Shown here: positions 48,703 to 55,963 of the stretch, piece after piece | How the letters are laid out: each line of letters starts with the position of its first letter | Numbering within the stretch: the first letter of the stretch is position 1 | Source: Ulvibacter sp. MAR_2010_11 | GTDB lineage: Bacteria; Bacteroidota; Bacteroidia; Flavobacteriales; Flavobacteriaceae | Assembly: GCF_002813135.1 (NCBI RefSeq) | Contig: NZ_PHTY01000001.1 | Span: forward strand, 1,979,501 to 2,043,500 | Direction of reading: 5' to 3' | DNA length: 64,000 bases | Notes under the pieces: generated by a model | What the model was told of the DNA's origin: nothing | What the model saw: the letters and a program-made list of their open reading frames with translations, nothing else | The model's database searches: none | Made by a program: the position numbers and the translations under genes

Positions 48703-51192
48703 TTAGTCAAGAATGTATTTGTTGTTATTCACAAAGAAGACGCTATTGACTAGGAATAATTTTCCGTTTTCCCAAAAGGAACGGAACAATACGTCGTCTA
48801 CCAAATAGATAAAACTACCTCTACCTATGCGCGCTTCCCCAAAAACAACCGAGTTTTTCAAACCTGCTTTGGCATCGGATCCCGAGAAACCGGAAACACT
48901 TATAGGCTCATCTTTTATATAACCCACATTGTATCCATTTTCTAAAAATGCAAACGAATTGTTGCCCTGTTTTAAACTGAAATACGTGTCACCATACCCA
49001 AATGCCATTGGATGTGATGGATCTAAGGTTACTTTATAGATACTTCCCGTAATAAAATCCTTGACACTTTCACGTTCCCGCTGATCGTAGGGAATTAAAT
49101 TACCTTTTACCGTGTCTTTATCTTCTTCTTTCTTATCACCTTCATTTTTCTTTAGATCGAAGCCTTCTTTGCCTTCGAAGGAATTCACGGCACGACCCAT
49201 TGCAATCACTTTTCCGCCATCGCGTACCCAATCCTTGATTTTGTTCAAATTAGTTTCATTTAAAAGTGACTGATACCAACCTTCCGGAAGTATCAACACA
49301 TCAAAATTTCGAATATTTATATACCCAAAATCATCGGTGTCAATTGAAGTTAGAGGATATTTCAGTTGTTGTTCAAAAAAGTGCCAAATGGCTCCGTAAC
49401 TCAATGATGAAACTCCGTCGCCCTTTAAGATAGCCACACGCTGTTTGTTTACAAGCTTGATATTCCCCGAACCGAAATCGGTCCCATTGTCACTAAAACT
49501 GGTTGGAGAGGCAAACAACTTTCGTTGATGCGCATTGGCAATTTTAATGACGGTTTCGTCAAACGATGCATTATTTTTATTGTCGCTTCGGGTAATTACG
49601 AGACTTCCTTTAGGATAAGCAGTTCCCGAAAAACTTAAATCTTTTTCAGAAAAACGTACCTTAATATTGTTTTGAAGTAATTCAGCAAGGAATCCGGCAT
49701 CGTTTAAACTATTCCACTTCGCAATATAACCGGGTGAATTTGCAACCATTATGTTTAATGCAAAAGCCTGAGGTTTCGACCCGCTGGCTGTTACCAATGT
49801 TGTGCTTGCCACAGTTTCTAATCCGTAGGCATGTGGCACGCTCCAAGCAGTAATATCGTAGGTAAGCGGATCGCTTAGTTTTGCGTCGGGTTCAAAAAGC
49901 ACTTTTACCATTTTTCCTTTCGGCTGATTGGTGCTTACTACCAATGCTCCGTTGCTGTCCATACTGCCGTCTTTATTGGCTCCAAAGTTAAAACCACTTA
50001 CTTTTCCGCCGGATGCATAACCGTACTTAATCTCGTGTTGATCTAATAATTTGGTAAGCGCATTTATTTTATCGGCATTGCCTTTTAACACATAGCTTTT
50101 GTATTTCAAACTACTGTTGTCGAAGAATTTTTTGAATTCGGTATTTAACTTCGCAGCATTCATAGAGGAAATCTCTATTGTTGAAAGTCCGGTAGTAGTA
50201 TGATGCGCCACACGATCCACCAACGTAAGCTCATAACCTTCGTCTGTATTTACACCCAATCCTGCTGCTCCATGACCCGCCTGTTCGTAGGTCATTCCAA
50301 TAGAGCCCATAAAAGTGGGGTAGGTGTCTCCGTAACTTGGATAGAGTAAATCGAAACTTTCCCGGGTAAAAAACAACCACCCTTCCTTGTCGAAATATTT
50401 GGCGTGATTCTTACCAATTTGCGTTTGAAAATCCCGCTGCCATGGAGAAATTATTTCGTGAAACGGCTCTGCTGCAGGTGCAAAATAATAGGGACTATTA
50501 ATACCCTGCTCGTGGAAATCGACATGCACATGAGGCATCCATTGATTGTACACTTTTAATCGCTGCTGACTCTCAATTTGTGTTAGCCATGCCCAATCGC
50601 GATTCAGGTCGAAAAGATAGTGATTTGCTCTTCCACCCGGCCAGGGTTCGTTGTGTTCGGTTGCTTCTTGTAATGCATTGTATGGAGTGGACTTCACCGA
50701 ATTATACCAATTGGCATAGCGGTCACGGCCATCGGGGTTGATACAGGGGTCGATAATCACCACTGTATTTTGCAACCAGGCCTTATTTTCGGTGATTAAT
50801 TTATATATGGTATTCATAGATGCTTCGGTACTTGAAGCTTCATTTCCATGAACATTGTAACTTAACCAAACAATGGCGATATTGGGAGAAGCGCTGCCGC
50901 TTTCCAGGCCGGCATTTTTAAGATTGTCTTTCCGAATGTTTTCAAGGTTCGCCATGTTTTGCGGACTTGAGACAATGGCATAGGTTAAAGGTCTGCGTTC
51001 GTATGTTTTTCCGTAGGAAGCGTAGGTAACCATGTCACTATTGGCAGCAACATGTTCAAAATAACGCACCACATCGGCATGGCGTGAAAATTGAGTGCCA
51101 ATTTCATACCCTAAAAACTCGGAAGGAGATTGTAATTGAGCAGTTAATGTAATAGTGAAAAGTAGAAATAGGAAAGAAATGTATCGTTTCAT
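48703..51192 (-). CDS. Exported M14-family zinc carboxypeptidase
   Basis: 829 aa. The signal peptide is about 1-19 (...ITLTAQ). The M14 domain spans about 35-370: zinc ligands H115 and E118 in 'NVHGNEASS', then 'DPCINPDGRDRYANW' and 'HVDFHEQGINSPYY', which supplies the third histidine. The C-terminal half (about 380-829) has a class I glutamine-amidotransferase-like or beta-rich region ('VLILPEGWYQSLL', 'GGKVIAMGRAVN') typical of the long Bacteroidota M14 proteins. No T9SS sorting domain is present, so it is probably periplasmic. It removes C-terminal residues from peptides or peptidoglycan stems; specificity unknown. Confidence 0.92.
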   Translation of the reverse strand: MKRYISFLFLLFTITLTAQLQSPSEFLGYEIGTQFSRHADVVRYFEHVAANSDMVTYASYGKTYERRPLTYAIVSSPQNMANLENIRKDNLKNAGLESGSASPNIAIVWLSYNVHGNEASSTEASMNTIYKLITENKAWLQNTVVIIDPCINPDGRDRYANWYNSVKSTPYNALQEATEHNEPWPGGRANHYLFDLNRDWAWLTQIESQQRLKVYNQWMPHVHVDFHEQGINSPYYFAPAAEPFHEIISPWQRDFQTQIGKNHAKYFDKEGWLFFTRESFDLLYPSYGDTYPTFMGSIGMTYEQAGHGAAGLGVNTDEGYELTLVDRVAHHTTTGLSTIEISSMNAAKLNTEFKKFFDNSSLKYKSYVLKGNADKINALTKLLDQHEIKYGYASGGKVSGFNFGANKDGSMDSNGALVVSTNQPKGKMVKVLFEPDAKLSDPLTYDITAWSVPHAYGLETVASTTLVTASGSKPQAFALNIMVANSPGYIAKWNSLNDAGFLAELLQNNIKVRFSEKDLSFSGTAYPKGSLVITRSDNKNNASFDETVIKIANAHQRKLFASPTSFSDNGTDFGSGNIKLVNKQRVAILKGDGVSSLSYGAIWHFFEQQLKYPLTSIDTDDFGYINIRNFDVLILPEGWYQSLLNETNLNKIKDWVRDGGKVIAMGRAVNSFEGKEGFDLKKNEGDKKEEDKDTVKGNLIPYDQRERESVKDFITGSIYKVTLDPSHPMAFGYGDTYFSLKQGNNSFAFLENGYNVGYIKDEPISVSGFSGSDAKAGLKNSVVFGEARIGRGSFIYLVDDVLFRSFWENGKLFLVNSVFFVNNNKYILD

Positions 51193-53039: not shown

Positions 53040-53092
53040 CTTCACTCTTCACTCTTCACTCTTCACTGCTCACCGTTCACCCTTCACCCTCA
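53040..53092. repeat. Heptanucleotide array locus C (inverted orientation)
   Basis: CTTCACT x4 followed by GCTCACC, GTTCACC and CTTCACC, seven words in one register from 53040 to 53088. These are complements of the GTGAAG-type words of loci A and B. Upstream, TGAGATT x2 (53008-53021) and a TTTGGGA word (complement of the AAATCCC family) appear. The array runs straight into the stop codon of the ATP-grasp gene (TCA at 53090-53092). Confidence 0.9.
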
Positions 53093-54133
53093 CAACGTTG
53101 CCAATCTACTGTTAAACAAGTAGTTTTCGTAAGTCTTGCTATAATGCACTTTTTTCTCGATAGATTTTATGACTTCAGTTGAGAAATCGGTTTTGTACAT
53201 ATTCCCCATGACATTGAGCCCTCCAGGACTGAAGACATTGATTTCCATTAATTTATCTCCCACAATATCGATTCCTACCAAAAACATCCCGTCCTGTACC
53301 AGTTTTGGGCGTACAATTTCGGCAAGCTCCATAATTTTATCGGTCATTTTTGCAGGATGTGGTTTTCCGCCTGCATGAATATTACTGCGAATGTCTCCAC
53401 TGGCATTTACCCGCTTCATGATGGCGTATTTGCCGTCGGCCGATTTCAACGGCTCGCCATTCATTAAAAAGAGACGGGTATCCCCATCTTTGGCATCGGC
53501 TAAATACTCCTGCGCAATTACATAACCATCCCTGCAAATCGCGTCGATGGTTTGTGTAAGGTTGTGTTCGTTTTTCTTGTCCATCATAAACACATTCGTT
53601 CCTCCTGAGCCCTGGAGGGGTTTAAGTATCATTTTTTGTTTCTGCTCTTTAAAAAATTCTTTTATTTCCTGATGATCCCTGGAAATGATGGTTCTGGGGC
53701 GTAATATTTCAGGAAAATGCTGAAAATACATCTTGTTAATGGCTCCGGCCAAGCTATTCGGGTGGTTTAGCACAAGTACATTATCTCGCGTGGCGATTTC
53801 ACCAAAAATAAAAGCGGCATTCTGCGCCCAGTTGCGTTCGTTTATATCGTCCGACGGATCATTTCGAAGAAATAGAACATCAAGCTCTTTAGAAGATACG
53901 CGTGTAAATTTTTCCTTCTGAAGCGCTTTAAAATACGTTTCCTGTGTTTTAAAGATCTGCCCGCTAATGGTCTTACAGCGAGCAGAAAGATGACCATCAC
54001 TTGCATAGGCCAATTCGCCAACCCCAATAAAAAATACTTCATGTTCCCTTTTGTAGGCTGCAAAACCCAAAGCCGGAGTAGTGAAATTAGGCTTTTCGGT
54101 TGCATGGTCGTTTATTATAAATGCAATTTTCAT
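53090..54133 (-). CDS. GshB-like ATP-grasp ligase
   Basis: 347 aa. The prokaryotic glutathione-synthetase N-domain opens with 'MKIAFIINDHATEKPNFTTPALG' features; the ATP-grasp region includes 'LRPRTIISRDHQEI', 'MILKPLQGSGGTNVFMM' (phosphate-binding glycine loop), 'YVIAQEYLADAKDGDTRLFLMNGEPL' and the metal-binding 'GIDIVGDKLMEINVFSPGGLN'. It would ligate an amino acid or peptide to a carboxylate using ATP. Whether the product is glutathione is doubtful: no gamma-glutamylcysteine ligase is nearby and the next gene is a DUF1704 metallopeptidase, only 6 nt upstream. See findings for a ligation/removal idea. Confidence 0.88.
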   Translation of the reverse strand: MKIAFIINDHATEKPNFTTPALGFAAYKREHEVFFIGVGELAYASDGHLSARCKTISGQIFKTQETYFKALQKEKFTRVSSKELDVLFLRNDPSDDINERNWAQNAAFIFGEIATRDNVLVLNHPNSLAGAINKMYFQHFPEILRPRTIISRDHQEIKEFFKEQKQKMILKPLQGSGGTNVFMMDKKNEHNLTQTIDAICRDGYVIAQEYLADAKDGDTRLFLMNGEPLKSADGKYAIMKRVNASGDIRSNIHAGGKPHPAKMTDKIMELAEIVRPKLVQDGMFLVGIDIVGDKLMEINVFSPGGLNVMGNMYKTDFSTEVIKSIEKKVHYSKTYENYLFNSRLATL

Positions 54134-54139
54134 ATGTTT

Positions 54140-55963
54140 CTAGTTTAATAATTCGGTAAGTTTTACACCTTTTCTAAGATTTTCTAATCGTTTTTTAACA
54201 CTGTCACGCTCCAAAAATCGAGGCAATACAGGAGGCTTTATTACATTCCTATGCAGTAACTCCTCAATGAGTTGAATATGCGTTATATTGAATTTGCCCG
54301 TATACAGGGGTTCCAATTCCCCTCCATCCTTTAAATATTGCAGCAGATATATGAGACCTGCCAGATACACAGCGTCTTTTGTAAGACCCCCACCGCGATA
54401 GATACGCATGGTTATATAGTATGCGGTCTTTTCGGGGAAACTATGTTTTTGCTCAAGGAGACGGAATGTTTCAATAAAAGTCGCATTGTGGACCATGGCA
54501 TTGGCCGCTACCACTCGTCCGGCCAGTAATCGAAGTCGGTTGACCGTGAGACCATCCACGAGATATTCAGCTAACACAGCCAAACCTTCCTGCAATTGGT
54601 CATACCCGGCAAAACCGGCATACATTTGTTTAATCGGCTGTTTTTTCCCGTTACAATAGGTTAAAATATGTGTTCCCACTTCATGCTGAATCAATGCGTC
54701 ACAGCGTCCAACATCCATGGATAAATCGTCACTAATTAATAATTTAGTTTCAGAAACCATAATGCCAACTACGTCCTTTCGTATCTCGAGAGACAGCGGT
54801 AGTTGAGGAAATTTTTCCTGATAATAATCCAATTCTATCTGAGCACGCTCTGCAAACTCATAGCAGTTAAACCGTTCCAGCTTTTCCGGATTATCACCCT
54901 GAGGAAACTTTTCAAGCAGTGCCTGTGCGCCAAATAACACATCGGCTTCTATTGCGCCGTACAAGCTTTCACCTATAAATCGGAAGTTTTCGGTACCTCG
55001 TTCTTCGAGCATGGTGAGTTGCTTTTCAATTTCCAGACGTTTGTCCCTTAAAATAAAGGACAGGGTGGGGTCGTCCACTTTTTCGATTGGGATATCGTAT
55101 AATTTTCGTTTTTCCTGCTCGGGATCCAGCGCAATGAGTCGGTAGTTAAATGCCGGAGTTTTTGTGAATTCGTTCTTTTTAAAAATATCCCATTGTTTCG
55201 AACTGTTTACGGGAGTGGTTCGAAGTAAAAAGGACATCTTTTCACTTATCTCTGCGAGCGTCGTGTCTGCTTCAAGCGTAATCTTATCGAGATTGGTCTT
55301 CCCAAGCATGAGATAATGATCGTACGGATTTGAAGTCTGAACCCGAATAAATTCATATACCGCTCTTTTAATTATTTCTGAAAGACGGGAGACAAACTTT
55401 CTGTAAAAAAGTGAAAAAATTTCATTCTCTTCAGGACGTTCGTAAATAGTGGGAACTGCGAGACCTACGATAAGGCCTCCCGATTCTTTAGATTCTTCCA
55501 TGTTTAGCAATTCTTCAAGATGATCGGGATGTCTTTTGTGTGTATCAGATATTGTGACACTTATTTCGGGATAGATAACTCTTAACTCATTGATACCATC
55601 TTCGAATGCCTTGATGGTTGCCGGGGCTTTCGATTTTGGGCAGGAAATTTCGAACTCCGCCTGATGGTCTTTTCGTACCGGCCACATTTCAATAATCAAA
55701 AAGGCGTTTAATTTTTCTGAAATAGCAGTAGAGAGACATTCCAATAAGTCTGAAACAGGATATGTGTCCTTTACTATTAAATAGGAGCCCTGTGTTTTTA
55801 GTAAACCCGAAAATAAATGATCGGTTTCCTTATAACGATACACACATATATAGGGTAATAATTTATCGATGTGAAGGATTCCTCCGTCCGGTAACAATTG
55901 GTTAACGGGCAGTTCACTCTCCAAATTCTGACAAACTTGTTCTAAAAGGTCGGTTGCGATCAT
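54140..55963 (-). CDS. DUF1704 (QEGLA-motif) metallopeptidase family protein
   Basis: 607 aa. The zinc motif HEVGTH (H427-H432, an H-E-x3-H pattern) and 'LQEGLAVLAEY' (E459, probable third ligand) define the family once named 'flavohemoglobin expression-modulating QEGLA motif protein'. Eukaryotic relatives include the MATCAP/TMCP tyrosine carboxypeptidases. The first 330 residues carry no recognised domain; 'IRVQTSNPYDHYLMLGKT' and 'RPEENEIFSLFYRKF' are family segments. It is cytosolic (no signal peptide). It is the first gene of a two-gene operon with the ATP-grasp ligase; the next start is 6 nt after the stop. The substrate in bacteria is unknown. Confidence 0.9.
   Translation of the reverse strand: MIATDLLEQVCQNLESELPVNQLLPDGGILHIDKLLPYICVYRYKETDHLFSGLLKTQGSYLIVKDTYPVSDLLECLSTAISEKLNAFLIIEMWPVRKDHQAEFEISCPKSKAPATIKAFEDGINELRVIYPEISVTISDTHKRHPDHLEELLNMEESKESGGLIVGLAVPTIYERPEENEIFSLFYRKFVSRLSEIIKRAVYEFIRVQTSNPYDHYLMLGKTNLDKITLEADTTLAEISEKMSFLLRTTPVNSSKQWDIFKKNEFTKTPAFNYRLIALDPEQEKRKLYDIPIEKVDDPTLSFILRDKRLEIEKQLTMLEERGTENFRFIGESLYGAIEADVLFGAQALLEKFPQGDNPEKLERFNCYEFAERAQIELDYYQEKFPQLPLSLEIRKDVVGIMVSETKLLISDDLSMDVGRCDALIQHEVGTHILTYCNGKKQPIKQMYAGFAGYDQLQEGLAVLAEYLVDGLTVNRLRLLAGRVVAANAMVHNATFIETFRLLEQKHSFPEKTAYYITMRIYRGGGLTKDAVYLAGLIYLLQYLKDGGELEPLYTGKFNITHIQLIEELLHRNVIKPPVLPRFLERDSVKKRLENLRKGVKLTELLN

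Follow-up and report, generated by a model that had tools for sequence, protein, structure and literature searches.

The stretch analysed here, referred to below as the window, is a 64,000-nucleotide (nt) segment of the genome of Ulvibacter sp. MAR_2010_11 (contig NZ_PHTY01000001.1, positions 1,979,501 to 2,043,500), a member of the Flavobacteriaceae. On its minus strand lies a pair of genes, the upstream one coding for a metallocarboxypeptidase of the MATCAP/DUF1704 (QEGLA) family and the downstream one for an ATP-grasp ligase resembling the glutathione synthetase GshB. The TAG stop codon of the former and the ATG codon of the latter are separated by a 6-nt spacer, AAACAT. Both genes are real and intact, and the coordinates and spacing given in an initial annotation of the window proved exact on re-reading, as did strand and lengths. 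We show herein that the pairing of long MATCAP with the ligase is not a matter of chance, and that it recurs in many bacterial groups, often together with a third enzyme. The features of the pair, numbered from the first letter of the window, are as follows.

53090..54133, minus strand: gene for the GshB-like ATP-grasp ligase (347 residues; matches to PF02955 and NF009110, GshB core residues)
53219..53230, minus strand: SPGG loop of the ligase (S302-G305), which in the alignment replaces SPTC(IRE) of Escherichia coli GshB
54140..55963, minus strand: gene for the long MATCAP/DUF1704 (QEGLA) metallocarboxypeptidase (607 residues; PF08014 match, predicted structure)
54149..55228, minus strand: MATCAP catalytic domain, about residues 246-605 (structure and PDB profile match to human MATCAP)
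54584..54592, minus strand: QEG motif with the third metal ligand, E459 (invariant in 102/102 long homologues; paired with human EEG in the alignment)
54668..54685, minus strand: HExxxH metal motif, H427-E428-H432 (invariant in 102/102; paired with human HEIGTH in the alignment)
55337..55891, minus strand: N-terminal domain, about residues 25-209, with a predicted fold like that of N-formylglutamate amidohydrolase (FGase) and without the FGase catalytic motifs (structure and profile comparison)

A sample of 149 genomes from the family of the window, taken from its named members to be Flavobacteriaceae, included the window's own genome; MATCAP occurs in 77 of the 149. Long MATCAP was found at 24 places of this sample, and at all 24 a ligase gene lies directly downstream on the same strand, with gaps of -4 to 311 nt. 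A wide scan of species genomes returned at least 569 relatives, of which the best 80, ranked by likeness to the query and hence leaning toward long forms, were read. A ligase lies no more than 400 nt downstream of long MATCAP at 75 of these 80 loci (22 of the 27 outside Bacteroidota), and in 27 of the 75 the two genes overlap. The loci come from Bacteroidota, Calditrichota, Planctomycetota, Acidobacteriota, Poribacteria, Gemmatimonadota, Verrucomicrobia, Kiritimatiellae, several proteobacterial classes, Campylobacterota and one actinomycete metagenome-assembled genome (MAG); the group labels are manual assignments based on the record titles, and many records are MAGs. When 950 neighbouring open reading frames (ORFs) of 106 loci were clustered into 102 families, the ligase family was present at all 106 loci and under 15 of 15 group labels, and FGase at 43 loci and under 13 labels; at these 106 loci no other neighbour family besides MATCAP, ligase and FGase appeared under more than 4 of the 15 labels. 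Chance or bystander pairing is rejected by this clustering. The MATCAP and ligase trees, compared for 117 pairs, have distances that correlate at 0.96, the highest value among 500 permutations being 0.18; common ancestry accounts for part of this correlation. Conservation across phyla had been proposed as a check on the initial prediction, with confinement to close relatives as the outcome that would speak against it; the pair in fact spans phyla. Left out of the counts were near-identical sequences, duplicate fetches, ORFs beyond the length limits, a contig-end fragment (G048) and a broken copy (G183). Spread by viruses was also considered and rejected, a viral collection having given a single partial match, at a contig end. 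L104, L111, L115, L118, L120, L136 and L153 carry either additional ATP-grasp ligases in tandem or repeats of the MATCAP-ligase unit.

Short MATCAPs occupy 64 places of the family sample. Among 18 of them read with wide flanks, 16 have an upstream ligase; 29 places (partly those 18) read with 1.5-kb flanks gave FGase upstream in 24 and ligase in 20. One protein of 702 residues (L194), short-type by score, was counted among the short types. The 3.03-Mb genome of Ulvibacter sp. MAR_2010_11 contains two MATCAPs in total, and the second (C1:2548463-2549626) is of the short form, encoded in an operon of the order ligase-FGase-MATCAP with another GshB-like ligase; farther upstream lies an SDF dicarboxylate symporter, one gene separating symporter and ligase. 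This operon, the FGase-like N-terminal domain and the usual third enzyme had all escaped the initial annotation. The same genome carries a third ligase cluster about 7 kb past the window (L168, C1:2050795-2054148), coding for an RLAN-RimK-like ligase (483 residues), a GCS2 protein (406 residues) and an FGase (227 residues), as well as a tandem pair of PF02955-matching ligases in 293-residue open frames (L171 and L172, C1:977997-979798).

FGase lies directly upstream at 39 of the 80 wide-scan loci, including 16 of the 27 outside Bacteroidota. In many Flavobacteria an aspartoacylase/AstE-type enzyme stands downstream in its place; this enzyme was found on the same strand at 23 of the 80 loci and on the other strand at 3, all in Bacteroidota, both identities being taken from Pfam matches of family representatives. 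FGase and AstE/AspA enzymes act on N-acyl-glutamate or N-acyl-aspartate. The two-gene pair first recognised stands as a functional pairing, but the unit often comprises three enzymes. FGase, QEGLA and glutathione synthase are annotated as consecutive genes on a Sinorhizobium meliloti plasmid (L155) and in Pararhizobium (L157). Two clusters, L034 (genome G125) and L076 (Winogradskyella bathintestinalis), combine both ligase types, FGase and long MATCAP, co-oriented and downstream of an SDF-type symporter; they hold one further gene, a rhodanese being present in L034. FGase::MATCAP fusions downstream of a ligase were found in Photobacterium sp. DA100 and two other gammaproteobacterial genomes, with DxHSYN intact in all 3. 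In small numbers, the fusions with a ligase (L156, L198 and L199) keep the DxH histidine, whereas those without a neighbouring ligase (L154 and L200) have lost it. At L046, L052, L129, L131, L138, L139 and L143, all near the type that has the AstE-like enzyme, a further gene precedes this type at a distance of 109-131 nt; from its start sequence we take it to be asparagine-synthetase-like.

By its predicted fold and metal site, the window MATCAP is a MATCAP-fold metallocarboxypeptidase. It matches Pfam PF08014 at 299.2 bits (gathering cut-off 27). In an AlphaFold2 model of the full protein (predicted local distance difference test, pLDDT, 87.7; predicted template modelling score 0.86), residues 246-605 align with human MATCAP (7z5g) with Z 22.8 and a root-mean-square deviation (rmsd) of 3.3 over 294 residues at 19% identity, and the PDB profile match of this domain to human MATCAP has an E value of 9.2e-17. 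The ligands H427-E428-H432 and E459, listed as intact at the outset, are correctly placed and are invariant in all 102 long homologues that remained after near-identical sequences had been taken out. The fold, the HExxxH and (E/Q)EG sites and the KDxVYLxG and GK motifs are common to human MATCAP1/TMCP1 and TMCP2 (KIAA0895L, KIAA0895). Unlike the human enzyme, the long bacterial form adds an FGase-like N-terminal domain and a linked ATP-grasp ligase; human MATCAP acts on tubulin, and for the bacterial form no tubulin substrate is known. According to one report, the MATCAP/TMCP enzymes of eukaryotes cleave Tyr and Glu from C-termini and also shorten polyglutamate, and the substitution E316A at the EEG site of human TMCP1 strongly cuts activity (PMC10499314). 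The flavohemoglobin expression-modulating QEGLA proteins of equivalog TIGR02421 are homologous across the MATCAP domain, but the window protein scores 309.3 bits against them, below the curated cut-off of 338.65. The shorter gammaproteobacterial MATCAPs, a class not scored against TIGR02421 here, lack the ligase, unlike the long form of the window.

The N-terminal domain resembles FGase in predicted structure and in sequence profile. Compared within the full model, residues 25-209 match FGase with Z 10.9. Modelled alone (pLDDT 92.4), the domain has FGase 2q7s as its top match (Z 12.4, rmsd 3.2, 173 aligned residues), leading the next, carboxypeptidase B (Z 10.7), by 1.7; an Agrobacterium protein and poly-gamma-glutamate hydrolase (3a9l) follow at Z 9.9 each. 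Profile-profile comparison of the N-terminal domains with the linked FGases gave a probability of 96% and an E value of 4e-9. The catalytic motifs set the domain apart from FGase. The DxH histidine is missing from 101 of 102 N-terminal domains, its place being occupied by W, Y or F in 93 and by His in 1, and the SRFE(V/Y)DLNR block is absent from 11 of the 11 aligned. The separate FGases keep DxHSYN and DLNR in 76 of 76 cases (D153, H155, N95, R96). Because elements so strictly kept there are lost here, the domain is very probably an inactive relative of FGase; loss is claimed for DxH and DLNR only, as the counterpart of the first FGase histidine is not fixed by the profile alignment.

The ligase passes the cut-offs of Pfam PF02955 (GSH-S_ATP; 178 bits, cut-off 23) and of NF009110 (PRK12458), which bears the NCBIfam name 'glutathione synthetase' (437.3 bits, cut-off 408). 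It fails those of both GshB equivalogs, TIGR01380 (208.6; cut-off 299.05) and NF003573 (221.9; cut-off 272), and of the RimK S6 ligase equivalog, NF007764 (34.1; cut-off 331). Its nearest solved relative is E. coli GshB (1gsa; 8.6e-36), RimK-type ligases matching at 2e-6 to 1.4e-5. The ATP-grasp glycine loop and the MEINVFSPGG region are both present, as had been stated, and K134, K171, R220, R241, R249, D289, E297 and N299 pair with residues of E. coli GshB; these eight core residues are kept in at least 103 of 106 and in 19 of 19 related ligases. The SPTxIRE loop of GshB has a role in substrate handling and is, as far as known, conserved among true GshBs. In the window ligase it reads SPGGLNV, E. 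coli GshB being the only GshB aligned. The place of GshB T288 is held by Gly in 106 of 106 and 19 of 19 linked ligases (125/125), and the second Gly of the loop occurs in 101 of 106 and 19 of 19; in nearly all of them SPGG(L/I) stands where GshB has SPTCIRE. Because the eight GshB core residues are kept but T288 is Gly in all 125, the comparison argues for an active ligase with a substrate other than that of GshB. A parallel with the tubulin tyrosine ligase TTL, drawn in the initial annotation, holds at the level of the superfamily, but the 5 families listed for the ligase in a Pfam scan (E 0.01) did not include a TTL domain.

Observed here are the order of the genes, their conservation, the folds as predicted, the intact residues of MATCAP and of the ATP-grasp ligase, and the lost FGase motifs of the N-terminal domain; the substrate, the direction, the physiological role and the part played by the N-terminal domain are inferred. 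The unit spans many bacterial groups, and its enzymes therefore probably serve to assemble and trim a peptide or protein tail of acidic character. Our preferred reading, to which we give about an even chance, is a module of ligase and hydrolases, usually three enzymes in all, for building and trimming a short acidic peptide in the cytoplasm, most likely one with Glu or Asp. In such a module the ATP-grasp enzyme would convert a carboxylate, at the cost of ATP, into an activated acyl phosphate and then couple an amino acid to it. As a zinc carboxypeptidase, the MATCAP domain would cut off the C-terminal residue. The N-acyl amino acid that remains would be hydrolysed by another zinc enzyme, one with an M14-like fold (FGase or, in many Flavobacteria, the aspartoacylase/AstE relative). 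An FGase of this kind is encoded at C1:2549623-2550459, in the second ligase-FGase-short MATCAP operon of the window's own genome, and the two loci may be sister copies or form a shared pathway. In the window MATCAP, the FGase-like domain would presumably serve in substrate binding or in docking of a live FGase.

Our best guess for the role is that the pool of acidic peptides or amino acids is adjusted to salinity, because Photobacterium relatives are induced when salinity is low. In an RNA-sequencing study of Photobacterium damselae at 1% versus 3% NaCl, the GshB gene A0J47_RS17020 was up 38.4-fold and the QEGLA gene A0J47_RS17025 27.5-fold (PMC10308900); this joint rise fits a joint pathway and a turnover cycle equally well. 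Coupling of an ATP-grasp ligase with a peptidase is also reported for RimK/RimB and RloA/RloC of Pseudomonas (ATP-grasp and retropepsin), where RimB and RloA cleave polyglutamate and the Rlo set is tied to hypo-osmotic tolerance (PMC12239564, PMC11957791; partial texts). RimB and RloA are, however, aspartic endopeptidases rather than MATCAP gluzincins, their ligase family differs, and no FGase is named for Rim or Rlo in those portions. The acidic-peptide module is favoured because the activity of eukaryotic MATCAP, the substrates of FGase and AstE, the low-salt induction and the RimK/RimB and RloA/RloC pairs all point that way; deglutamylation by eukaryotic MATCAP and low-salt induction are taken from papers on relatives.

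Several observations weigh against this module. The glutamate theme leans on what the families act on elsewhere, and no substrate, activity or product of any bacterial member was found in the literature. Adjacency of the two P. damselae genes is taken from their locus tags and from the Photobacterium sp. DA100 locus. At the window locus, FGase is missing from the place directly upstream and AstE from the same strand downstream; both are likewise wanting at 15 of the 80 wide-scan loci, and 3 other loci are cut off upstream. Among the five loci outside the 75, L107 is adjacent provided that the over-long ligase ORF starts at the end of MATCAP, but at L097 one gene sits between MATCAP and ligase, at L117 and L141 the ligase is on the other strand, and at L153 an opposite-strand ORF intervenes. 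In a sample of 274 gammaproteobacterial genomes, MATCAP was found in 39 genomes at 42 places. The long or FGase-fused forms there speak for the pairing, with an adjacent ligase in 12 of 13 cases (exception, L200/L213). The shorter forms occupy 27 places, of which 25 were read, and none of the 25 has a same-strand ligase within about 1.5 kb; the last two of the 42 places are pieces of a broken copy. The MATCAP domain alone therefore needs no ligase.

The initial annotation takes the ligase to attach a residue to the C-terminal end of some cellular protein, from which MATCAP would cut it off again. Such a tag/untag cycle is possible, if rather unlikely. The MATCAP catalytic site and predicted fold agree with those of a known protein C-terminal carboxypeptidase, and RimK/RimB, acting on ribosomal S6, are a bacterial ATP-grasp and peptidase pair at work on a protein tail (PMC12239564, PMC11957791; partial texts). 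On the other hand, no conserved target or carrier ORF was found nearby, the usual third enzyme comes from families named for small N-acyl amino acids, and the ligase is nearer in sequence to the small-molecule enzyme GshB than to RimK-type ligases. Comparison of 1018 small intergenic ORFs near the 106 loci gave no carrier protein or precursor peptide (after the logic of LysW) common to distant loci; the 15 largest groups of small ORFs come from Bacteroidota loci only, nearly all close relatives. The proposed ligation/removal cycle, a sensible if incomplete idea, keeps its functional pairing and cross-phylum conservation, but its link to TTL is one of superfamily and its unit is often of three enzymes.

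One-way biosynthesis of a small peptide metabolite or cofactor, with the hydrolases trimming precursors rather than reversing ligation, we regard as unlikely. More than one ligation step is suggested by the tandem extra ligases (L104, L111, L115, L118, L120 and L136) and the two ligase types at L034 and L076, and the genes are co-oriented and, as noted, frequently overlap; yet the loci have no tailoring, carrier or export gene in common, nor, beyond the three enzymes, any family above the 4-of-15 level. It is quite improbable, in our judgement, that the same three enzyme kinds as in the tubulin code (ATP-grasp, MATCAP gluzincin and M14-like) reversibly edit the acidic C-terminal tails of a bacterial protein in a system ancestral to eukaryotic MATCAP.

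Least probable of all is that the ligase is a glutathione synthetase and MATCAP a bystander. In its favour are the NF009110 score, the one GCS2-family protein of the window's own genome, and the excess of GCS2 among genomes with long MATCAP (8 of 22) over those without (18 of 127; Fisher p 0.028), the last of which counts against a non-glutathione view. On the other side, the ligase fails both GshB equivalog cut-offs and has Gly at the T288 place, as do all linked ligases, the own GCS2 belongs to a separate ligase-GCS2-FGase operon, 14 of the 22 long-MATCAP genomes lack a GCS2 match, the other GshA family (PF04262) occurs in 0 of 149 genomes, and neighbour clustering makes MATCAP no bystander. 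Glutathione as the ligase product, named in the initial annotation as the outcome that would tell against it, is accordingly unlikely. The names 'glutathione synthetase' for the ligase and 'flavohemoglobin expression-modulating' for MATCAP relatives are probably misleading.

In kind the unit, an ATP-grasp ligase with a peptidase, is known; its form is new. A survey of amidoligases by Iyer et al. in 2009 reportedly treats ATP-grasp/peptidase neighbourhoods and may already name the MATCAP-ligase one; as that survey may have listed it, first description is not claimed. In the part of the literature search results that was covered, no paper was recognisable as dealing with the bacterial MATCAP-ligase cluster, and mentions were rows of gene tables (PMC10308900; PMC3091676, with VV2_1203 next to VV2_1204); a term search of PMC12393276 and PMC13269789 gave nothing. 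The conserved cluster supplies a pathway context for the bacterial MATCAP family and, in low-salinity induction, a first regulatory clue. S. meliloti, where three genes in a row code for FGase, MATCAP and ligase, is a tractable model, and the substrate, if found, could reveal the job of MATCAP enzymes before tubulin.

Next to the pair in the window lies bshC. A link to bacillithiol through this gene was considered and rejected, as bshC is oriented convergently and, among the loci compared, was met again at just 7, all of Bacteroidota. Past bshC, at 48703-51192 on the minus strand, an M14 carboxypeptidase of 829 residues is encoded, the start of which looks probably secreted; it is a neighbour of the pair in close relatives only.

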